A stretch of DNA of 64,000 nucleotides from a virus. The stretch covers positions 41,517-105,516 of IMG/VR virus record IMGVR_UViG_3300023174_000096; one strand, given 5' to 3'. A program made the translations under genes and the position numbers. Numbering within the stretch: position 1 is the stretch's first letter; every line of letters begins with the position of its first letter. Below, piece by piece: positions 6,878 to 43,051 of the stretch. The notes beneath the pieces are model-generated. The model was not told where the DNA came from. It ran no database searches and worked only from the letters and a program-made list of their open reading frames with translations.

Positions 6878-8242
6878 TCAGTAGTCGATGTTCTCCCCCG
6901 TACCCGTACGGGAGCGAATCTGGATTCCGTTCGGCACGTTGCCCTTGTCGGTGGACATGGGGAACACGGCGTCGGGCGTGACGGACCACGGTGCGCCCGT
7001 CTGTTTGTCGTACGTCTCGCGGTACGGGCGGTAGGGGTACCGGGTCTGCGGCCACGGGAGGTTGGGCGACGCCAGCACGATTTCCACGGGTACGTCGTAC
7101 CGGATGTCGTTCGGGTCGATGTACGCGATGTTGAAGTGCTGCTGCATCACGTTGCCACGGTTCGTGGGACGGCGCACCGGGCCAACGCTGTACCGCTCGT
7201 TGTTCTGCTTGAGGACGAAGTCGCGCATCGAGATGATGGGCGAGAAGCTCGTCCACACCTCGTAGCTGTGCTCTTTTCTCCGTCCGTTGGGCGTCTGCGA
7301 GATACGCTTCTCGGCGTCGTCCGGGGCCATCAGGATGTCGTAGGGACCCTCAAAGCCGCCAACAAATCCCGTCCCGTAGCAGACCCGGCACCTGTTGCTG
7401 GGCTGCTTGTTGTAGGCGCGGGACTGCGGGTCGGTCTCGCTGCGGCAAGGGCAGGGCATCCCGCTGACCTTCTGGACGAAGAGCTTCACCCGCTCGCCGC
7501 CCTGTTCCAAGATCCAGCGGTTGCGGCGCATGGCCTCGCGCCAGATGTAGTCAAGCTGCTCGATCTGCATATCCGACGCGGGCATCGTCTGATCCAACGG
7601 CGTCTCGATGTACCCCGTGGTTGATCCTTCCGCGACCGCCACCGTGGTCACCCGGTAGAAGAGCTTGCGGTCGATCATCGTGTTCGGGTAGAGCACGTTC
7701 CGGGCGGTGTAGTAGCTGACCACCACGGCGCTGTTGGGGCCGGGGAGGGGTGATTCCACGTTGCGGTCATCGCGCGGGTCGATCTCCACCTGCGTCTGGA
7801 GAGTGATTTCTCCCGTCTGGCCAAACACGGTGCCGACCCAAGCGGGCACGCCGTCGATGGTGACCAGCACGTCCTCCGGGGAGTTCGCGGGCACCCCCTG
7901 TGCGCGAGGCTTCGCGATGGGGTAGCGGGTCTTGAGGGTCCAGCGCGCCGCGTTTGGCGCGTCCCCCTTGGACTGCCACCCGCCCTCCCAAGGGATCACC
8001 TCACTGGAGACCAGCGCCACGTCGGTGAAGTCCCGGTAGAACGTCGCGCTCACCGGGTAGCTGTTCAACCGCTTGAACGGCCCCCGGTCGCTCGCCTCGC
8101 TACGGTAGACGTTCACGCCCACCACGTTGTACTCGGTGTTCGCGCCGATCAGGGATGGGTCATCCCAACGGATGTCCAGCACGCCCTTGCCGAAGGGCGA
8201 CACGACCATCGTGTTCAGCGGCGGCTGCGGGTACAGGGACAT
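6878..8242 (-). CDS. virion structural protein with internal zinc-knuckle motif
   Basis: 454 aa. The N-terminus resembles a fibronectin-III-like beta domain (DIRWDDPSLIGANTEYNVVG). In the centre PCPCRSETDP and RCRVCYGTGFVGG form a Cys pair-pair motif as seen in a family of neck/tail structural proteins of large phages. Rich in Tyr/Pro/Arg towards the end. Function in the virion is inferred. First gene behind the promoter-like element at 8250-8272. Confidence 0.7.
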   Translation of the reverse strand: MSLYPQPPLNTMVVSPFGKGVLDIRWDDPSLIGANTEYNVVGVNVYRSEASDRGPFKRLNSYPVSATFYRDFTDVALVSSEVIPWEGGWQSKGDAPNAARWTLKTRYPIAKPRAQGVPANSPEDVLVTIDGVPAWVGTVFGQTGEITLQTQVEIDPRDDRNVESPLPGPNSAVVVSYYTARNVLYPNTMIDRKLFYRVTTVAVAEGSTTGYIETPLDQTMPASDMQIEQLDYIWREAMRRNRWILEQGGERVKLFVQKVSGMPCPCRSETDPQSRAYNKQPSNRCRVCYGTGFVGGFEGPYDILMAPDDAEKRISQTPNGRRKEHSYEVWTSFSPIISMRDFVLKQNNERYSVGPVRRPTNRGNVMQQHFNIAYIDPNDIRYDVPVEIVLASPNLPWPQTRYPYRPYRETYDKQTGAPWSVTPDAVFPMSTDKGNVPNGIQIRSRTGTGENIDY

Positions 8243-8243
8243 A

Positions 8244-8273
8244 CCCTAGCGGGGGGATAAGGCGGGAAACGGC
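8244..8273 (-). promoter_or_regulatory. candidate late promoter (CTTATC variant)
   Basis: Minus-strand CCGTTTCCCGCCTTATCCCC followed by CGCTAGGGT and then the ATG at 8242. The T-rich block plus CTATC-like core recurs before other virion genes (see the finding on this element). Confidence 0.5.
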
Positions 8274-8276
8274 GGG

Positions 8277-8996
8277 TCAGTGCCAGACGGAGAACTCGTA
8301 CTTGTAGTTGATCTTGTTGGCCTTGAGCCAGTCGTCGAAGTCGTCCCAAGAGATGCCCTTCAGCGCGTCCGGGCTGGCCGTGAGCATCTGGTAGAACTTC
8401 CGAGCCGCCGTGGCGGACGACGACTTGATGATGGTGTAGTGCGGGTCCGACTGCTCAAAATCGCTGTTGGGCGAGTAGGACTTGAACTCCAGCCACTCGG
8501 CCTTCACCGAGAAGTTCTTGCCGTACACCGTGATGGGCTCGACGTTCTCGGGCACCACCGAGAGGTAGTTCACGAGGTCGTCGTACCACTTCACGCCAGA
8601 GAGGTCTCGCATCGGGTCGTACCCCGGCGTGGCGTGGGCTCGCACGTCGGCAAGCACCTTCTCGCTGGTCATCGCGCCGAAGATCTTGTCCTTGATCGTG
8701 TCGAACGAGTCCATCGCGGAAATCTTGCCGTAGTGGCGGATGAGGTTGATGGGCATCCACGCATCGAACTTCGTGGAGAAGTAGGGGTTCCGCAACTCGG
8801 ACACGCGGAGCTTGCGCTTCCCCTTGGCCGGGAGCTCCTCCAGCTTGAACTCGTAGCGGTCCCACGTCAGACGCCACCCGTCACCGACGAGGACACCTTC
8901 CATGGCTCCCGCCGTCTTGAGGATGGGCAGGAGGTGAGGGCGAAGGGTGGGTTGTTGATGGGCCAGACGGATCAGCTTGGAACGGAGTGTTGACAT
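8277..8996 (-). CDS. tagged protein 1 ([11 protein letters not shown]-terminus), unknown
   Basis: 239 aa. Residues 3-24 carry the shared N-terminal tag ([21 protein letters not shown]). The remaining ~210 residues ([46 protein letters not shown]) have no homology visible to me with the other tagged proteins. The ATG at 8996 is preferred over an upstream one, because the tag starts right there and a Shine-Dalgarno (agaggaatg) precedes it. Possibly an internal virion protein; that is inference. Confidence 0.75.
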
Positions 8997-9039
8997 GGGC
9001 ATTCCTCTCACATCTCGCAGCTATAAAGAGACCAACGAC

Positions 9040-9288
9040 GTGTGGCATGTCTACGTCCTCACCAGCACCGTCCGGGCTGTCACCTACGTCGGCTGCACCA
9101 ACGACGTGGGGCGCAGGGTGCGCCAGCACAACGGAGAACTCTCTGGGGGCGCGCGGTTCACCCAACGATGGCGACCGTGGGTGCTTGGGGTGGTGTACGG
9201 GCCGTTCGACGGGCGGGGTGATGCCCAGCGGGCCGAGAGGCTGGTGAAGCGCCTACGAGGCCCCGCGCGCCTACGATGGCGGGCGTAA
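9040..9288 (+). CDS. GIY-YIG domain protein (UPF0213-like)
   Basis: 82 aa from GTG 9040. WHVYVLTS...[17 protein letters not shown] is the GIY-YIG core (here VYV/YVG) with the catalytic Arg in RRVRQH, as in stand-alone UPF0213 nucleases. An in-frame ATG at 8995 would overlap the divergent tagged gene and is less likely. The gene ends CGG GCG TAA, and that stop lies inside the GGGCGTAAC element serving the next gene. Confidence 0.8.
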
Positions 9289-9289
9289 C
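9281..9289 (+). promoter_or_regulatory. GGGCGTAAC element before 9311
   Basis: GGGCGTAAC overlaps the stop codon of the GIY-YIG gene and lies 22 bases before the ATG at 9311. It is the same 9-mer found before the polymerase, the helicase and other genes. A promoter role is inferred. Confidence 0.5.
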
Positions 9290-9310
9290 TACCCGTGGAA
9301 AGGAGCACCC

Positions 9311-9808
9311 ATGATGGGCGCTTTCAACGAGGTAGACGACATGTTCCGTGGAGTTCAGTACAACAAGTTCACGAGTGGGCAGATCCGCGAGGCGATGAAC
9401 CGCAAGGTCGAGGCGGTGCGAGCGAAGATCGAGGAGCGCCGGGGCCGCATCGACAAGATCACCCGCGAGAACGAGATCACCCCCGAGGCCCTGTCCGACC
9501 TCATCGTGCAGTACTCGCAGGACCAGCGCCGGGGCGGAGGGGCCAAGATGTCCTACTCGATCCCGAACAGCAACACTTCTTCTGGCAACCGGACCAAGGA
9601 GACGGTGGTGCCCGCTGGGGTGATCGCCAACCTCGTGACCGAGAAGGAGCTCGTCACCTCCGAGACGGCAGAGGTGAAGCGCCTCGACCTCATCCTCCGC
9701 AACCTCAAGGACGACCAGCCCTTCGTGGACGAGAAGACGGGGGAGCTCCGTTCGCGCGCCGTGATCCACACGCTGGACGACGCCGAGATCGAGTATCTCG
9801 GCTTCTAG
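9311..9808 (+). CDS. unknown protein with helical N-terminus
   Basis: 165 aa. Residues 25-65 are strongly helical and charged (REAMNRKVEAVRAKIEERRG), a probable coiled coil; the C-terminal part is acidic. Shine-Dalgarno aaaggag lies 6 bases before ATG 9311. It precedes the AcrVA2-like gene by 41 bases and may be in the same transcript. No family recognised. Confidence 0.7.
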   Translation: MMGAFNEVDDMFRGVQYNKFTSGQIREAMNRKVEAVRAKIEERRGRIDKITRENEITPEALSDLIVQYSQDQRRGGGAKMSYSIPNSNTSSGNRTKETVVPAGVIANLVTEKELVTSETAEVKRLDLILRNLKDDQPFVDEKTGELRSRAVIHTLDDAEIEYLGF

Positions 9809-9844
9809 CCTGTCAGTATCCTCGGCCTTCCAACGTCCAGAGGG

Positions 9845-9850
9845 GCGTAA
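9845..9850 (+). promoter_or_regulatory. GCGTAA overlapping start of the AcrVA2-like gene
   Basis: GGGGCGTA runs directly into ATG (9850), the shortest spacing of all GCGTAA sites seen here. It could equally act as the ribosome-binding region (aggggcg). Confidence 0.3.
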
Positions 9851-11040
9851 TGAAGACCATGACCGCCGCCCTCCCCAATCCCGTGGTTCACTACGAGATG
9901 ATCCGCAAAGACCCGCGCAACCCGCTGCGGGTGTTCCCCGAAGACATCAAGTCGAAGATCCTGCACGACCCCTTCAACAAGCAGGGGGACAACCCCCTGC
10001 CCGCGCAGACGGTCAGCGCCTACAGCACCACCTACAACATGATGCGGTCTACCGTCGCTTACGAGCGCGGAGGGCAGCAAGTGGTGGTGCTGGGGCCACG
10101 GATGCAGGAGGCGTTCGCCAACACCTCGCTCTCCGAGGTGAGTGCGGAGCACATCCGTTTCCCCTTCCCCTGCTTCTACCTCGCCACCCCGCAGTCCAAG
10201 CTCAAGGCGTGGGGCGGAAGTGACACCCTGTGGCACCGGGTCGAAGGTGCCTACGTCATGGAAGACCCCGCCGAGCCGGGGGTGATGAGCGTCCTCATCT
10301 GGGGCGCGGCGAACGAGCGGTCGCAGTTTCCCACGGACGACGCGACGTTCTGGTTCTCCATGCGTCTGGGCCACGGCGGGACGGTGGACCTCGACGGCGA
10401 CCTTGAGAAGCGCCTCGACTTGGCCGAGCTTCGCGAAGGCACCCTGCGGAACATCGAACTGGAGTCCGCCGTCACCCGCATGGACCTCGACGCGCGGGTG
10501 AACGGGGTGCTGGACAACCGGGGCGCGAACATCAGTGACCGTCTCGCGAACATCCCTCAATCCGAGGAGCTCGCGCGGGAGGTCAAGGCCATAGTCAAGG
10601 CGTTCCTGCGGGTGGTGATCAACACCCTGCTGTACATCAACAGCGCGTCGTGTGAGACCAAGAGCGCCGACAACGATGGGAAGCGCCGCGAGCTAGAGAC
10701 TGCGCTGGGGCGCAAGAAGCACAAGAACGGCAAGGACGCCAAGAAGCTCGCCCGCGACCTCGACGCCCTCCCCAAGTACCGGGTGACGTGGATCGGCCCG
10801 ACCATCGAAACGAGCGCGGGCGGCGACACAGACCTCACGGGCACCCGCACCGTGAAGGGGCACATTCGCCGGGGCCACTGGCATACCTACCGGGTGGGGC
10901 CGCGAAAGACCGAGGCTGGCGAGAGGATCGACCCTGCGATGCGAAAGGCGTCGCTGAAGTGGGTCGCCCCGGTGTGGGTCGGCGGCGGGGTGCCCGAGGA
11001 CAAGCCCCGCGTCTACGGGGTGCGCGAGCCCGTCACTTGA
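9850..11040 (+). CDS. AcrVA2-like protein (anti-CRISPR-related family)
   Basis: 396 aa from ATG 9850. The C-terminus (residues ~338-385) reads HIRRGHWHTYRVGPR, then LKWVAPVWVGGG. This closely follows the end of anti-CRISPR AcrVA2, which as I recall has HIRRGHWHGYW followed by a RW-P-x-x-V segment. The centre (VSVLIWGA region and FLRVVINTLLYINSAS) fits the same layout. AcrVA2 represses Cas12a production by acting on the nascent Cas12a N-terminus and its mRNA; relatives are widespread in phages and plasmids whose hosts lack Cas12a. This protein is ~75 aa longer. An interference role is inferred, not shown. Converges on the next gene with an 8-base overlap. Confidence 0.7.
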   Translation: MKTMTAALPNPVVHYEMIRKDPRNPLRVFPEDIKSKILHDPFNKQGDNPLPAQTVSAYSTTYNMMRSTVAYERGGQQVVVLGPRMQEAFANTSLSEVSAEHIRFPFPCFYLATPQSKLKAWGGSDTLWHRVEGAYVMEDPAEPGVMSVLIWGAANERSQFPTDDATFWFSMRLGHGGTVDLDGDLEKRLDLAELREGTLRNIELESAVTRMDLDARVNGVLDNRGANISDRLANIPQSEELAREVKAIVKAFLRVVINTLLYINSASCETKSADNDGKRRELETALGRKKHKNGKDAKKLARDLDALPKYRVTWIGPTIETSAGGDTDLTGTRTVKGHIRRGHWHTYRVGPRKTEAGERIDPAMRKASLKWVAPVWVGGGVPEDKPRVYGVREPVT

Positions 11041-11689
11041 TCGCGACGTAGGGGTTCTCCATGAGGTAGTAGTTCATCGGCAACTGATAGAGGTTGCCGC
11101 CGAAGTCCAGAACAAAGTTCTGGCCCTTCACTTCCCGCACGGTCACCACGTCACCGGGGTTCAGCGTGAAACCGCTACGGTATGAGACGGGCTTCAGCAT
11201 CGTCAGCAGCATCCCGGGCTTCAGCGGCTTGGCGTGTTGGACGCCCGCTTCCAGCATGACGAAGTACCGGGGGAAGTAGCTGCGGATGCTCTTCTCCAGT
11301 TGGTCGTGGCTGTCCGAAAGCCCCAGAGCGCGAGCCCACTCCGGGCGTTCGTAGAGGGGGATGCTGATCGCCACGTCCTCCTCGTACCAGTAGTAGCCGT
11401 TGGAGAACTCGGCCATCTTGGTAGCCGCAGCCGTGAGCATCTTCTGGGCTACGCCCTTCGCCACGGCCAGACCACCGTGGCCAGCCGTCCCGTACAGGCG
11501 AACTCCACGAGCCGCTTCCTTCCCGTACTGGGCAGGCCCCCAAGGGGTCCAAGGGGCAGAGCGGTCACCGTCGGGCCAACTCAAGGGGCCAGCGGCGACC
11601 TTCCCGTTGTCCAGCAGCGGGAGGAGGTGTGGGCGAAGGGCGGGCGTCTCATGTGCGAGACGAATCAGCTTGGTGCGAAGGGTGGTCAC
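11033..11689 (-). CDS. tagged protein 2 (LRTKLIRLAH N-terminus), unknown
   Basis: 218 aa, GTG start with Shine-Dalgarno ggag eight bases upstream. Residues 3-24 are the shared tag (TLRTKLIRLAHETP, LRPHLLPLL). The rest has an amphipathic middle (AVAKGVAQKMLTAAATKMAEF) and a beta-rich end resembling an SH3-like barrel (PGDVVTVREVKGQNFVLDFG). No similarity to tagged protein 1 beyond the tag is apparent. Confidence 0.75.
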   Translation of the reverse strand: MTTLRTKLIRLAHETPALRPHLLPLLDNGKVAAGPLSWPDGDRSAPWTPWGPAQYGKEAARGVRLYGTAGHGGLAVAKGVAQKMLTAAATKMAEFSNGYYWYEEDVAISIPLYERPEWARALGLSDSHDQLEKSIRSYFPRYFVMLEAGVQHAKPLKPGMLLTMLKPVSYRSGFTLNPGDVVTVREVKGQNFVLDFGGNLYQLPMNYYLMENPYVAIK

Positions 11690-35439: not shown

Positions 35440-38400
35440 TCAAACGAGGCCCGACCAGCCCTTGAGGGAGGCGAGGATCTTCTTGGCGGCGGACGCCCCC
35501 TCCGTGACCTTCACGGGCTTGGTGGGGGACTCTTCGTTCGTGCGGTCGATCACCGTGAGGTAGACACTGGTGTCACCGAGGGTGCATTGGGACAGCAAGA
35601 ACTGCTGGTACTCGGGAGCCCCCTGCGCGTTGTCCTTGGGCTGGGGGTAGACGGTGAGGTACACGCTGAAGGCCATCCCGTCCACGGTGCGGTCGCCCAC
35701 CTTGCAGGGGACGAAGTGCGGGTGGACGGTGATCGACAGGGAGTTGGGGAAGCGCATCCCCGCCCGCACCTCGTCCACCGCCGCGCTGGAGATCAGTCGG
35801 AGATCCTTGGGCATGATCTTCTGCGAGAGGGCCGAGAGAACCTCCCGCGCCTGTGCCCGGAACGCCTCAAACCGCTCGTAGAGCATCTGGGCATCCCGAA
35901 GCGCCGCGCTGATGGTGGCGTCACTTGGGTGCTCGGTGAGGTAGGTGCGGCAGTGGGCGATCACCCGCTCGGCGTGTCGCATCCCATGCTCAGACTTGGC
36001 GAACACCTCCGTCTGCGAGTGCAGGGTGAGCGCCGCGATGCGCCCCACCACGGGCATGGGCACCGTCTCCGCGTAGGTGTCCAGCACCGCTTGGATGTCC
36101 GACGCCAGTGCCTCCAGCGTCTCCAGTTCGCCCGTGATCGTGGCCACGGGGTCGATGGCATCGAGGTGCTGGGACACGACACGGCGAACAGATGCACTTC
36201 TCACGGGTACCTCACAGACAGTCGGAGGGGGGTCTTGGCGACCCTTCCAGAACACGGTGACGATCTCGATGCGCCCTGCGTCGGTGGCGAACACCACTTT
36301 CAGCCGGGTCTTGGGGTCCACCCACTCAATCTTCTCTTGGGAGAGCAGGGCTTCGTACTGGTCGGGGTTCACCTTCTGGAGCCCCTGCGCGTAGACGATG
36401 AACGAGTTCAGCGCAGCCTCCACGTCCTTGACCGTCACGGATCGGTAGTCCATGCGGAACTGGGCGTGGGGGAGGATGGTGAAGCTCTTGAAGCCCGACC
36501 CGCTCTCAGTGGTCAGCGGGTAGACCTTCCGGGCGTCCGGGTTGGACAGATCACCCGTCTCGGCGTCGTCGGTGAGCTTCTCCCGCAGAGCGGGGTTGCG
36601 GATCGCGCGGTTGATCCGGTCCACCACCTTGCACGGGCCACCGTTGAGCCCCAGCGGTGGTGACAGGTCGGCGGTCTTCTTGGCCTTCTCGTCGGCGGCT
36701 TCCATCTGACCCTTCACCTTCTCGGCCCACGCTCGTCCGGGGTCACCACCCCAGATCAGCCACGACACGTTGCCCTTGTCGTTCCACGGCTCACCCTTGT
36801 TCTCCGGGGCGACGCCCTTGTTCTTCTCGTGGCGCGAGAAGAACGCGGTCATCTGCTTGATGGTGTCGGGCGAGATGTTGTCCCGGTTCTTGAGGTTCAC
36901 CGCCCGCTGCACGCCGCTCCCGATGCCCTGCTCGGCAGCTTCCGCCGGGGTGAGCCCGCCCTTGTTCGACGGGCTGGCTTTCTCACGGTACTCCAAGCCC
37001 TTTTCCGCTGCGTCGGCCACCGACTGCGGGGGCTTGAAGTCGATGTGCTCGTACTTCTTGGGCACGTCGGCGGTTCGGGTGCGGCGGTGGTTCATGGTCA
37101 CGTCTTGATGATGAAGTTCACGGCGAGCCACGGCTGCATATTGGCGTGCGCGCTGCCACCGCCCGTCGAACCCGTGGTGAACGTGTGCGTGTAGACGAGC
37201 GAACCGTTGGGCGACACGGACGGGGGATGCGCGGAGCCTCTCTCGCACGCGGTCGTTGAGTTTCACGTCTTGGTCGGCCAAGTTCGGGTCCGACAGGAGG
37301 AACTCGCGAGCAATGGGGACAAGGCTCGCGCGAGCCCTGCCCGTCAACGAGAACTCTTGAATGAGCGCCATGTTGTCCACTGCGGGTTTCCGCAGGGCTT
37401 CAAGGTACTTCCTTGCCTCGTCACTGGACCATCCGCTGGTGTTCTGCTTGAACTGCTCGCGCTCGTTCGGCGTCAAAAAGTCCAGCACCCTCCCCGCGAT
37501 CCCGATGTCGGCAAGCTCCAACAAGAGCTCGACCGTATGGTTGCCGTTCGCCAGTTGCTTGGTGAGGTATGCCGCGAACGGGGGGTTCTCTTGCACCATC
37601 TCGACGATCACGTCGAGTAGGCCAAGGGAACGCATCACTTTGAGGCCCATCGTCGCCTTGGGTGACTTGAGGATGTCCCCGACGAGGATGTTCCCGACAG
37701 CTTCCCACGGCATATTCTTGAGCTTCGCGGCGTTGCGCCTCACAGAGGCCATAGCATCGGGCGAGATGGTCAAGTCATACCGCAGCAAGAACTTCAAGAC
37801 CCGGAGCATCCGAGTCGGGTCGTCGCTGAAGGTCTTGTCGGGGTCCACGGGCGTCGAGATGAGCTTCTGCTCAAGGTGCTGACGACCCAGCCCCGTGAGG
37901 TCAATCACTTCGGCCTTGTCAGGGCCGTTGGCGAGGTCATGCATCCGCCACAGCAGGGTGTTGAACGTGAACTCTCGGCGGAACACATCCTCTTCAATGG
38001 TCGCGGGGGACACGTCCGTGGGCTTGTATCCCTTGCCTTTGCCCCCCGCACCCTCGTAGGACTCCTTGCGGGCGTTGGCGATCTCGATCACCTCGCCCTT
38101 CAGGTTGATCCCGTCGAGCAGCCACTCCCCCTTCACGGTGAGGATCACCACCCCGTACTGGTTGGTCGCGAGGTTCGTCGGGACAGGGATGGCGTCCACC
38201 ACCTTTCGGGCGAACCACTCTGAATCCCGGCCCGCCGACACGGAGTCCACCACCACGTCGATGTCCTTGATGGGCACACCGAGGATGAAGTTCCGCACGG
38301 CACCGCCGACGACGTAGACGTGTCGGGCGACGCCAGCGTCACGGGCCACCTCAGACAGAAAACTCATCAACGCGATGGACTTGGCGTGTGCCGAGGATGC

Positions 38401-39309
38401 CATCAGGTACCGGGAAGCGAGCTTCACCGGGTCCACGGACTTCCTGACCTGTCCGGTCTTGGGTGACAGTTCCACGAGCTCTTTGCCTCCGTTGCGGTAG
38501 CTAAACGCCCTCACCGTGATCTTGGGCGAGTAGTCCTTGGGCAGACGGTCCTCCAGCCCCTCGTAGTCCATCTTGCCGGGGATGACGTAGAAATCCAACT
38601 CCCGGTCGGTGAGGTTCATCACCATCTGGGAGGTGGTCGCCATCGAGTCCGTGTCTCGCACCGGGTCGTTGTGGGTGCGCGGCCCTTCGGAGCGGTTCCG
38701 CATGAGGTCCGGGCCAAGGTCCGTGGGCGTCTTGCTCTGACGGAGGATCTGGGTGGACTTCTCCTTGCGGGCGGCGGACGAGAGATACCCCTCGCCGTCC
38801 GTGTAGCCCGTCCCGCCCGTGTCGCGCCCGTGGTTGGTGCGGACATGGATCTCACTGCCCTCCAAGGGCTTGGTGACGCAGTCCCCGTTGATGAGCTCGA
38901 CCGAGAACGCCCGGTTCGGGTCACTCACGAACGAGTGCCCTTCCAGCCCCCCAAGGTGGGAGCACAGGGAGTCAATGGCGTCCTGCACGGTGCGGCACGA
39001 GAGGGCCTTGAGGATGCGGGCACCGTCGAGCGCCTTGCCCTTCTTGCCCTTCTTGTCCTCGACAGCCGTGGCGGTGCCTTCGGCCTCATCGAGGCCCACG
39101 GCGAGCGCCGCGTTGGCGATCCCGATCCCGTGCTCGTTCAACCCCTCGCACCACCCCGTGACGTTGTCGCGCATATACGCGACCTCGACGCCGTCGAGGA
39201 GCTCGCGGACGAGGGTGACTCGTGGGGTGTACTTGCGGTCACGGTTCTTGAGGAGAGCCCTCTTCCCGTCCCACACACCAGCAGCAATGACGCAAGCGAG
39301 TCTGTCCAT
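35440..39309 (-). CDS. multidomain protein: Ntn-hydrolase, nucleotidyltransferase and C-terminal modules
   Basis: One open frame of 1289 codons. Residues 1-300: Ntn-hydrolase (acyl-CoA:6-APA acyltransferase/C45-like), with Cys6 as likely nucleophile after a 5-residue prosequence (MDRLACVIAAGVWDGK), KNRDRKYTP and TGWCEGLNEHGIGIAN. A KLASRYL linker (~38405-38425) precedes residues 310-690: a tRNA-nucleotidyltransferase/poly(A)-polymerase head (VVGGAVRNFILGVPIKDIDV, the G-G-x-V-R and D-x-D catalytic pattern) plus a helical body (DDPTRMLRVLKFLLRYDLTI). Around 37100-37260 the frame crosses an out-of-frame tail-fibre relic. A second module begins MNHRRTRTADVPKKYEHIDF (ATG 37095; 551 aa) and may be translated separately. 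Confidence 0.75.
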   Translation of the reverse strand: MDRLACVIAAGVWDGKRALLKNRDRKYTPRVTLVRELLDGVEVAYMRDNVTGWCEGLNEHGIGIANAALAVGLDEAEGTATAVEDKKGKKGKALDGARILKALSCRTVQDAIDSLCSHLGGLEGHSFVSDPNRAFSVELINGDCVTKPLEGSEIHVRTNHGRDTGGTGYTDGEGYLSSAARKEKSTQILRQSKTPTDLGPDLMRNRSEGPRTHNDPVRDTDSMATTSQMVMNLTDRELDFYVIPGKMDYEGLEDRLPKDYSPKITVRAFSYRNGGKELVELSPKTGQVRKSVDPVKLASRYLMASSAHAKSIALMSFLSEVARDAGVARHVYVVGGAVRNFILGVPIKDIDVVVDSVSAGRDSEWFARKVVDAIPVPTNLATNQYGVVILTVKGEWLLDGINLKGEVIEIANARKESYEGAGGKGKGYKPTDVSPATIEEDVFRREFTFNTLLWRMHDLANGPDKAEVIDLTGLGRQHLEQKLISTPVDPDKTFSDDPTRMLRVLKFLLRYDLTISPDAMASVRRNAAKLKNMPWEAVGNILVGDILKSPKATMGLKVMRSLGLLDVIVEMVQENPPFAAYLTKQLANGNHTVELLLELADIGIAGRVLDFLTPNEREQFKQNTSGWSSDEARKYLEALRKPAVDNMALIQEFSLTGRARASLVPIAREFLLSDPNLADQDVKLNDRVRERLRASPVRVAQRFARLHAHVHHGFDGRWQRARQYAAVARRELHHQDVTMNHRRTRTADVPKKYEHIDFKPPQSVADAAEKGLEYREKASPSNKGGLTPAEAAEQGIGSGVQRAVNLKNRDNISPDTIKQMTAFFSRHEKNKGVAPENKGEPWNDKGNVSWLIWGGDPGRAWAEKVKGQMEAADEKAKKTADLSPPLGLNGGPCKVVDRINRAIRNPALREKLTDDAETGDLSNPDARKVYPLTTESGSGFKSFTILPHAQFRMDYRSVTVKDVEAALNSFIVYAQGLQKVNPDQYEALLSQEKIEWVDPKTRLKVVFATDAGRIEIVTVFWKGRQDPPPTVCEVPVRSASVRRVVSQHLDAIDPVATITGELETLEALASDIQAVLDTYAETVPMPVVGRIAALTLHSQTEVFAKSEHGMRHAERVIAHCRTYLTEHPSDATISAALRDAQMLYERFEAFRAQAREVLSALSQKIMPKDLRLISSAAVDEVRAGMRFPNSLSITVHPHFVPCKVGDRTVDGMAFSVYLTVYPQPKDNAQGAPEYQQFLLSQCTLGDTSVYLTVIDRTNEESPTKPVKVTEGASAAKKILASLKGWSGLV
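37098..37262 (-). pseudogene. out-of-frame relic of a tail-fibre/collar C-terminus
   Basis: In the minus-strand frame shifted relative to the 1289-codon ORF, 54 codons run from a stop at 37263-37265 to a TGA at 37098-37100. They end GSTGGGSAHANMQPWLAVNF then IIKT and stop. That ending (GxGxAHxNMQPxLAxNFIIKT) is the classic C-terminus of tail-collar/fibre proteins. There is no start codon. The TGA lies two bases before the ATG at 37095, as a normal gene junction would. It looks like the scar of a deletion. Confidence 0.75.
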
Positions 39310-40132: not shown

Positions 40133-41233
40133 TCAGGGGGTGTGCCCGCCCGCGACACACGCGGCGGCGAGGCGGTCGAGGGCTTCGTGGACGCTCATCT
40201 GGGTGCTGCCGCCCCAATCCGACGAGTTGTCCGGGTAGTAGGTGGTGAAGCTCTGGTACTGGTCCCACTCCCCCACATCTTGGTTCTCACGGACGTAGGT
40301 GCCGGGGGCCGGGAACGTGGCGAGGTAGCCGGGGCCGAAGAACGTGTCGTTGCCGATCCAGCAGGGCGACCCGTCCGTCTGCACGACGGCGCTGCCAAAC
40401 ACGAGGAAGGCGTACCAGCGGATCGACGTGCCGTTCTTCAGACGCAGGTACAGGGTGGCGTTCGCGTAAACCGCGAAGCTACCAAACTCGTAGTTGCCGA
40501 AGCGGAAGTCACAGTTGTCGAGCGTGAAGGTCGTGTCCGTGCCCTCGTAGGTGCGGCACTGGAACACCGACGTGTCGAGGGTCACGTCCTGCTCGTCGCT
40601 AATCGGGTCACCGGGCGCGGCGTTCCCGTCCCAGCCCAGATTGCGAATCGTGAGGGTCGAAGTCTCGGCGGACACCGAGTCGATCTCGAACGCGCCCGCG
40701 TTGTCGATGATGACGAGCACGCCCGCGACGAAGCCGTTGACGAAGTTGTCCACGGTCACGGTGGCGGTATCGCCCACGTTGGGCATCGTGAAGGCGGACG
40801 TTGTGTACGTCGCCGTCCCGCTTCCTTGCCCGCGGAAGAAAATGTTCTTGAGGCCCGCGCACCCGTAGATGTGGCACGGCCACTCGTAGCCGCCGTCCGC
40901 TTCAAGGTACTGAAGGTACTGGTAGGGGCGGAAGCTGTAGTCGTAGTCGTCCCAGCCGTAGGACACGCCCACGATGGTGGTGTTGTTGAGGTGCCACTCA
41001 CCCGGTGGGAGGTAGATGTCTTCCTGCTCCGGGTTGAAGATGTAGATGCTGGTCTCGGGTGCGGAGCTTGATTGCACCGCCGCCACGGCCTCGCCCCACG
41101 TCGCCACCGCCCCGGTGGGGAGGGGATCGCTGAAGGGAGCCCACACGATGGTGGGGACAGAGCGGTTCGGGGCCGCGCCGACTTGGTTGAGCGCCGTCTG
41201 TTCGGTCGCTCCGACTGCTGCGAAGATGGGCAT
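40133..41233 (-). CDS. virion surface/fibre-like protein
   Basis: 366 aa. Repeating short beta strands with aromatic and Asp/Asn residues (FNPEQEDIYLPPGEWHLNNT; TDTTFTLDNCDFRFGNYEFG) suggest a right-handed beta-helix. Low Lys, acidic. Shine-Dalgarno gtaggag before ATG 41233. Probably a fibre or decoration protein; it has two promoter-like elements upstream. Confidence 0.65.
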   Translation of the reverse strand: MPIFAAVGATEQTALNQVGAAPNRSVPTIVWAPFSDPLPTGAVATWGEAVAAVQSSSAPETSIYIFNPEQEDIYLPPGEWHLNNTTIVGVSYGWDDYDYSFRPYQYLQYLEADGGYEWPCHIYGCAGLKNIFFRGQGSGTATYTTSAFTMPNVGDTATVTVDNFVNGFVAGVLVIIDNAGAFEIDSVSAETSTLTIRNLGWDGNAAPGDPISDEQDVTLDTSVFQCRTYEGTDTTFTLDNCDFRFGNYEFGSFAVYANATLYLRLKNGTSIRWYAFLVFGSAVVQTDGSPCWIGNDTFFGPGYLATFPAPGTYVRENQDVGEWDQYQSFTTYYPDNSSDWGGSTQMSVHEALDRLAAACVAGGHTP

Positions 41234-41362: not shown

Positions 41363-43042
41363 CTACTCCTCGTCCTTGAACGTGGGGGTGAACACGGGCT
41401 TCTTGCCCTTCGGTGCCTTCTCCTGCACCCTCATCTTCTCTCGGGCCTTCTCGGCGCGCTCGCCCTTAGCCATGTCGTGGGCCTTGGGTCGGGCCATGCA
41501 CTTGAAGGGGGTCTTCCCGCCCCGGGTGAGGTCTTTCCAGTTCGGGTCGTCCGTGAGGTCGCCGCACGGCCCGATGATGTCACCGGGCTCGTAGGTCTTC
41601 TTGGTCCCGTCCTCGCGGGTGATCGTGCGCTTCACGGGCGAGATCGCCACCCAATCTCCCCACTGGGCCTCACCGGGTGATTTGCCCTTGCCCTGACCGT
41701 GGCCGCTGAACCACTCGTCTAGGCCCCCGTGACCTACGTCTTTTTTGGCCTTTCCCTTGGCGGACAGGTAGCGGGACGCAACACGGGCGGCGCTTGCGAA
41801 GCGCCCACGGTCCTTCTTGGCGAGGAACGCCTTGAACCGCTCGATCTGATCGCGGGTCATGTCCCGGCCCAGAACGAAGTGCGCGAACACCTCCGCGAAA
41901 TCCTCCTCCGTGGCGGTCCCCCCGTACTCCGACACGGCGGCGACTTCTTTGTAGAAGCTGTCGAACCGAGCGCGGTCGCCCGCGTCCATGAACTTGAAGT
42001 AGTAGCGGTGCCCTAGCTCATGGATGAGGAGCTCGACCAAGAAGGGCTTGGGCAACAAGAACACCACGACGTGGTCGGGGCCGATGACGTAGTGCGCCCC
42101 CACTCCGAAGTGCTTGCCCAGCGGGTTCTCACCACCGCACTTCGGGCACCCGACGAAGATCGGGCCATACCAGAGGTCGCCAAAGCCCTTCTGGTCGAGC
42201 AGCGCCTTGGCCTTCTGGAAGTAGGGGATGTAGTCAGACAGACCCCGGGGGTCACCGGGGTCGGGGCGGGTGATGAGGTTACGGTCGGGCTCGCCGTCGT
42301 ACACCAGCTTGACCTTCCCGATGTCGAACTCCAGCAGGATCTCGTCGGGATCGTAGGACGAGCCCCCCGAGTATTTGCTGAGAAATGTGGTGATCGCCCG
42401 CAGGAGTTTGCCCGAAAGGATGTCCTCGACCTTGGCGAGTGCCTCCCGGGCGTAGTCCTCGTACCCCTTCAGCGCAGCGGCGAACGGGTCGTCAGGGTTC
42501 ACCCGCTGGTAGAAGCCCAGTATATTCTGCCCGTCCATCGTGTAGGTGTGCGTGCCGGGGGTCATTGCATCCCGGACGTGCTGGAACTTCCCGAGGTCTT
42601 CGTCGAGAAGGTACCTCGCTTCCTTGAGCTCATCACGGACTTTGAGTCGAATCGCCTCAAAGACGCTGGACGGGTCCATTCCACGGGGCAGCAAGCCCTT
42701 CGTGTAGGCCATGTGCTCCCACAGGCGCTCTAGCTCCCGGTCCCGCAGGGACTTGAAGTGCGCGATGAGGTCGTCGAGTGAGGCGTACCGTGGCTTGGGC
42801 GCAAAGGTCTTCTTGACCCACGCACGGATACCCTTGACCCATGCCGGGTCGATCTTGGTCTCCTCCCCGGCGGACTTCTTCGCCCGCCAACCGCCGCCCT
42901 CGTCCTTGTAGAGCTTGAGGGCGTGCCCGACCGCGTAGGCACTGGGCCACTTGGTGTAGCGTTCCTTCGCCTTCGCCTTGCACTTCTCCCAGAGCTCGGG
43001 ATTCGTGGGATCGTTGTCGTCGGCGGCAGTGAAGCGGTCCAT
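41363..43042 (-). CDS. multidomain zinc metallopeptidase, virion-associated (probable)
   Basis: 559 aa from ATG 43042 (a GTG one codon earlier is possible). N-terminus: ELWEKCKAKAKERYTKWPSA, a DUF5872-like segment common in phage virion proteins. Centre: LLIHELGHRYYFKF, a canonical HExxH zinc-peptidase motif, with EDFAEVFAHF downstream as a possible third ligand. CPKCGG may be structural. Then RVASRYL (~41765-41785) and a C-terminal domain (WGDWVAISPVKRTI; GDIIGPCGDL; KCMARPKAHDM) similar to a DUF6321-type module. A DNA-ejection or cell-wall role is inferred. Confidence 0.8.
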   Translation of the reverse strand: MDRFTAADDNDPTNPELWEKCKAKAKERYTKWPSAYAVGHALKLYKDEGGGWRAKKSAGEETKIDPAWVKGIRAWVKKTFAPKPRYASLDDLIAHFKSLRDRELERLWEHMAYTKGLLPRGMDPSSVFEAIRLKVRDELKEARYLLDEDLGKFQHVRDAMTPGTHTYTMDGQNILGFYQRVNPDDPFAAALKGYEDYAREALAKVEDILSGKLLRAITTFLSKYSGGSSYDPDEILLEFDIGKVKLVYDGEPDRNLITRPDPGDPRGLSDYIPYFQKAKALLDQKGFGDLWYGPIFVGCPKCGGENPLGKHFGVGAHYVIGPDHVVVFLLPKPFLVELLIHELGHRYYFKFMDAGDRARFDSFYKEVAAVSEYGGTATEEDFAEVFAHFVLGRDMTRDQIERFKAFLAKKDRGRFASAARVASRYLSAKGKAKKDVGHGGLDEWFSGHGQGKGKSPGEAQWGDWVAISPVKRTITREDGTKKTYEPGDIIGPCGDLTDDPNWKDLTRGGKTPFKCMARPKAHDMAKGERAEKAREKMRVQEKAPKGKKPVFTPTFKDEE

Positions 43043-43051
43043 CACCGCGCG

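Follow-up and report, generated by a model that had tools for sequence, protein, structure and literature searches.

Polyvalent proteins of phages and conjugative elements carry several unrelated enzymatic domains in one polypeptide (Iyer et al. 2017, PMC5512222). Fusions of neighbouring genes by in-frame deletion, with a pseudogene remnant left between the partners, are also a known kind of event: a stop codon and an intervening gene are lost, and the flanks are identical to those of an undeleted relative. Tail collar proteins (PF07484), such as WQY99831.1 of Microbacterium phage MO526, have a common ending, ...GGG.AH.N.QP....NFIIKT-stop. The locus described here combines these features: several unrelated enzymatic domains lie in one reading frame, a stop codon and a gene have gone between flanks identical to those of a relative, and the collar ending is still legible. 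The fusion adds a new example to a known class of events. It differs from known deletion fusions with a remnant in that the gene was lost twice, independently, in two sister phages that retain opposite ends of it. The result is a base-resolved before/after pair for the joining of neighbouring phage genes into a multidomain protein by deletion, and the sister loss allows a comparison.

The window, the whole stretch of 64,000 nt that was analysed, covers positions 41,517–105,516 of the bacterial-virus record IMGVR_UViG_3300023174_000096 (G000; 105,516 bp, itself a fragment). A search with the long open reading frame (ORF) found two syntenic relatives: the close relative G001 (contig L002; IMG/VR 3300032243_000867, 265,895 bp) and G002 (contig L003; IMG/VR 3300032331_001209, 57,200 bp). 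Contig L110 is a fourth relative.

Composition of the 1289-codon ORF

The ORF (35440–39309, minus strand, from the ORF list) consists of an AAT-like (Ntn-hydrolase family) domain, a nucleotidyltransferase, an out-of-frame bridge and a third module. It matches Pfam PolyA_pol above the cut-off (E = 9e-15), Pfam AAT below the threshold, and PHROGs 2244 (tRNA nucleotidyltransferase, E = 1e-31) and 2859 (E = 1e-12). The AAT-like domain (300 codons, 38410–39309, minus strand), assigned by alignment, is 89% identical to its counterpart in G002, where it is a gene of its own, and 64% identical to that in G001. The tRNA nucleotidyltransferase-like domain (405 codons, 37195–38409, minus strand) is 99% identical to that of G001 and ends in the peptide tag SPVRVAQRFARL (37224–37201). 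It is followed by the 32-codon bridge HAHVHHGFDGRWQRARQYAAVARRELHHQDVT (37096–37191, minus strand), which is the collar relic read in the wrong frame. An annotation of the 1289-aa protein as an established architecture would be misleading, since a stretch of 32 residues in it is collar sequence read out of frame.

The third module (35440–37095, minus strand), a separate gene in G001, comprises a PHROG 2859-like N-terminal part and a C-terminal part. A search with the C-terminal module matched only G001 and G002. For the function of this part, an AlphaFold model (three sequences) was poor, with a mean pLDDT of 58, and a Pfam hint of DUF4258 was below the cut-off and was set aside. The former start codon of the module gene, an ATG at 37093–37095 on the minus strand, lies two bases past the relic stop, as the first-pass annotation of this DNA had reported. 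No Shine–Dalgarno core was seen in front of this ATG, either in the window or in G001.

The collar-gene relic

In a second frame, the relic reads ...SPNGSLVYTHTFTTGSTGGGSAHANMQPWLAVNFIIKT and closes with a stop at 37098. The first-pass annotation had recognised this collar/fibre ending inside the long ORF, with no start codon and with an in-frame stop just upstream; all of this is present, the upstream stop being TGA 37265–37263. It had assigned the whole interval 37098–37262 to the ending, of which 37192–37098 is collar sequence, while 37262–37193 is the 3′ end of the nucleotidyltransferase read out of frame. The relic proper (37098–37192, minus strand) is composed of the last 30 codons, THTFTTGSTGGGSAHANMQPWLAVNFIIKT, plus TGA, with two bases of the previous codon, and has no start of its own gene.

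The relic keeps the conserved C-terminal ending of tail collar proteins in the collar gene's own frame. A 36-aa relic peptide matches PHROG tail protein 8763 (E = 4e-8), the relic DNA is 81% identical over 64 nt to the tail collar gene of phage MO526 (E = 1e-6), and the intact collar protein of G001 matches the relic site with an E-value of 1.6e-16. These alignments place the resemblance far beyond chance. Unlike tail collar proteins, the window retains the last 30 codons only, without a start or a collar domain; PF07484 has no match in G000, and the relic is a remnant and not a family member. Another intact collar gene was sought in G000, and none is present in the 105.5-kb record, which is a fragment.

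Codon-position composition shows which of the two frames was constrained. Over the 31 long-frame codons at 37191–37098, the GC fractions at codon positions 1, 2 and 3 are 0.90, 0.42 and 0.58, against about 0.62, 0.42 and 0.87 in the flanks. Read in the collar frame, the relic bases give 0.41, 0.56 and 0.88, with the high third position of real genes. Other viral contigs supplied 46 distinct ends of collar-type genes for comparison with the relic; the distant ones align poorly and carry little weight. In the closest ends, the differences fall mostly on third positions of the collar frame (for example, 8, 5 and 20 at positions 1, 2 and 3). Stops occur in the long-frame equivalent of 35 of the 46 ends, and no relative has the bridge as a conserved protein segment; such conservation is what the first-pass annotation had named as fatal to its reading. 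Since both codon-position GC and the homologue comparison favour the collar frame, the bridge HAHVHHGFDGRWQRARQYAAVARRELHHQDVT is not an evolved protein segment, and a conserved protein in the long frame is ruled out.

Continued use of the relic, for example through a programmed frameshift giving the nucleotidyltransferase a collar-like tail, is very improbable. The relic frame is indeed open back to 37262, overlapping the end of the nucleotidyltransferase; however, the relic is only 30 codons long and lacks the collar domain, and in the intact state the genes are separate, the collar gene having its own start and ribosome-binding site.

A 366-aa protein encoded at 40133–41233 of the window (minus strand) has a start, MPIFAAVGATEQTALNQVGA, that resembles the start of the collar protein, MPIYTSIGATPETARALIDAVG. 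The two proteins possibly have a common virion-anchoring end.

The intact arrangement and the deletion junction

In G001, a nucleotidyltransferase gene ending in ...SPVRVAQRFARLSSQH and a stop is followed by an intact collar gene and then by the third module. The collar gene runs from an ATG at L002 10856 to a stop at 11569 and encodes 237 aa (Pfam Collar, E = 1.3e-23 to 2.3e-22); the third module begins with an ATG at 11572, two bases past the collar stop. An intact collar gene between the two modules of relatives had been predicted from the window, and L002 10856–11569 bears this out.

Relative to the G001 arrangement, the window lacks 648 bp (216 codons), and the flanks are identical to either side of the junction at 37192–37193 (minus strand). 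On the left, identity holds without a break to L002 10827; on the right, it resumes from 11475. Both bases map to window position 37192, so that the missing segment is L002 10828–11475, or one base earlier, with an overlap of 1 bp. Two marks of a deletion-derived fusion with a remnant are therefore present, namely an intact gene at the syntenic place of a close relative and a junction with exact ends. A deletion joining the end of the nucleotidyltransferase to the end of a fibre gene had been proposed from the window; the deletion is supported, but the gene encoded a 237-aa collar-domain protein and not a long fibre. Over about 1.25 kb upstream of the junction, a SNP and a 6-bp indel are the only differences between the window and G001; downstream, identity is complete until about 37040. 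Elsewhere around the locus, identity is 65–97%. Given this difference from the near-identical flanks, the deletion is recent relative to the rest of the locus.

The same similarity pattern bears on whether the junction arose from a chimeric read or a faulty assembly, with the collar gene intact in the actual phage. Material of a G001-like phage could have mixed in, as 38444–37040 is near-identical to G001 amid surroundings of 65–97%, and the junction was found in none of the other viral contigs. Such an artefact is nevertheless improbable: the joined ends share a single base, so a k-mer overlap cannot have joined them; the segment differs from G001 by the SNP and the indel; a clean in-frame ORF results; and G002 has lost its collar gene in its own way. 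The preferred reading, with a probability of about 0.9, is that a 648-bp deletion in a G001-like ancestor removed most of the collar gene and fused the outer genes.

The segment of the window that is nearly identical to G001, unlike its surroundings (37040–38444, minus strand), is bordered by a peptide tag (38444) and by the start of the third module (37040). These borders suggest that the segment represents a recent cassette exchange.

Loss of the collar gene in G002

In G002, the collar gene is lost as well, and its opposite end is left as a 24-codon mini-ORF behind a good ribosome-binding site. This stub reads MPIYTSIGATPETARALIDAVG and then KT-stop; its closing 15 bases, CAAGACGTGACCATG, match the end of the G001 collar gene exactly. 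The mini-ORF ends in TGACCATG, the same link to the module as in G001. In the next gene (L003 9059–11962), a phosphatidylserine decarboxylase domain (PF02666, E = 3e-15) is joined to the third module. By this sequence comparison, G002 lost the collar gene independently of the window.

Cassettes are often gained and lost at these loci, and the relic might accordingly be pictured as a fragment captured from a collar gene elsewhere instead of a residue of deletion. Synteny already contradicts such a capture and leaves it hardly any probability, since at exactly this position G001 has the intact gene, with identical flanks and likewise linked to the module through TGACCATG, and G002 has a stub from the gene's other end.

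Proposed history and consequences for translation

The ancestral order would have been that of G001: an AAT–nucleotidyltransferase gene, a tail-collar gene and a third-module gene. A deletion of 648 bp with a one-base overlap at its ends, presumably an illegitimate event, would then have started within the nucleotidyltransferase gene, five codons from its end, and stopped at collar codon 207 of 237. The losses would comprise the last codons and the stop of the nucleotidyltransferase gene and collar codons 1–207, the last of them in part. The collar gene would thereby have been deprived of its ribosome-binding site, start and collar domain, with its last 30 codons becoming dead sequence. The neighbours were fused into one ORF because 648 is a multiple of three and both stand in the same frame. 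As the third-module frame was already open through the collar gene, the deletion would have yielded the 1289-codon ORF directly, and the remnant in it would be translated out of frame into a linker of 32 residues.

The collar start in G001 and the stub start in G002 have a Shine–Dalgarno core, unlike the third-module start. Loss of the collar gene could threaten translation of the third module unless a start and a stop survive, as in G002, or an in-frame fusion arises, as in the window. Because the module has no Shine–Dalgarno core and starts two bases past the collar stop, the in-frame fusion would keep it translated once the collar gene had gone, and the G002 mini-ORF would serve the same end by another route. 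Translational coupling as the background to both the fusion and the G002 mini-ORF is plausible, though weakly tested, given that a visible core is absent from many other starts in the window.

Peptide tag and module shuffling

The joins between the modules of the locus differ from relative to relative and often lie at a short peptide tag that recurs. In L110, acyltransferase-like, decarboxylase (PF02666, E = 5e-25, phosphatidylserine decarboxylase), nucleotidyltransferase and C-terminal modules form one 1250-codon ORF (6977–10729), and no collar sequence was found in this contig. This single ORF means that the nucleotidyltransferase is joined in frame to the C-terminal module elsewhere too. 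Among other viral contigs, the module precedes the nucleotidyltransferase in L004 and the acyltransferase in L010, and in L191 it follows the nucleotidyltransferase.

The tag, [RK][VIL]A[SAQ][RK][YFW], often lies at domain seams and at the ends of unrelated proteins (PVKLASRYL, SPVRVAQRF, SAARVASRYL). It occurs in the window at 38430–38404, 37224–37201, 41791 and 19729 (all minus strand), and in other contigs at L003 8928 and 9875, L010 9873 and L112 6929–7927. The window, G001 and G002 together contain six tags, some mutually homologous, against 0.1 expected from shuffling, and the acyltransferase loci contain eight against 0.3 expected. The motif was chosen after examples had been seen in these phages, which biases the counts for the window group; the control loci and permuted patterns are fairer, and control phage loci have no tag in 156,000 residues. 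Printed forms of the tag were not found in a literature search. The tag may direct processing or targeting, and its position at domain seams offers a testable lead on the packaging or processing of such proteins by large phages.

Polyvalent proteins are recognised by at least two biochemically disparate domains per polypeptide, and the long ORF has PolyA_pol above the cut-off and an AAT-like domain by alignment (Pfam AAT being below). Variation of domain order between relatives is a further likeness (PMC5512222), as is a zincin-type motif, HELGH, in the neighbouring ORF 41363–43045, a candidate processing metallopeptidase whose Peptidase_Mx match is weak (E = 0.057). The locus is a shuffling region of polyvalent-protein-like character. 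The last join in the window differs from polyvalent proteins in being a recent deletion scar and not an established architecture, and a text search of Iyer et al. 2017 (PMC5512222) found no decarboxylase or NTN-hydrolase terms. A wider and tentative reading, against which the odds lie, is that the locus serves as a construction site where virion polyproteins are put together. Acyltransferase-like, nucleotidyltransferase, phosphatidylserine decarboxylase and metallopeptidase modules would be swapped, fused in frame or separated at tag seams, with the tag acting in processing or in targeting to the capsid; on this view, the collar deletion would be a recent step in the making of a new polyprotein.

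Two further rearrangements were observed in G001. At L002 8001–8734 lies a GIY-YIG/NUMOD3 homing-endonuclease-like ORF, preceded by a 45-bp stub that matches the start of the window's acyltransferase gene at 97.8% identity and followed by a divergent full acyltransferase gene; this is a second gene stub at a cassette border. A segment of about 1.07 kb with the HELGH (zincin-like) domain (window 41799–42868, minus strand), also present in G002, is missing in frame from G001, and the join it has left there adjoins an RVASRYL tag.
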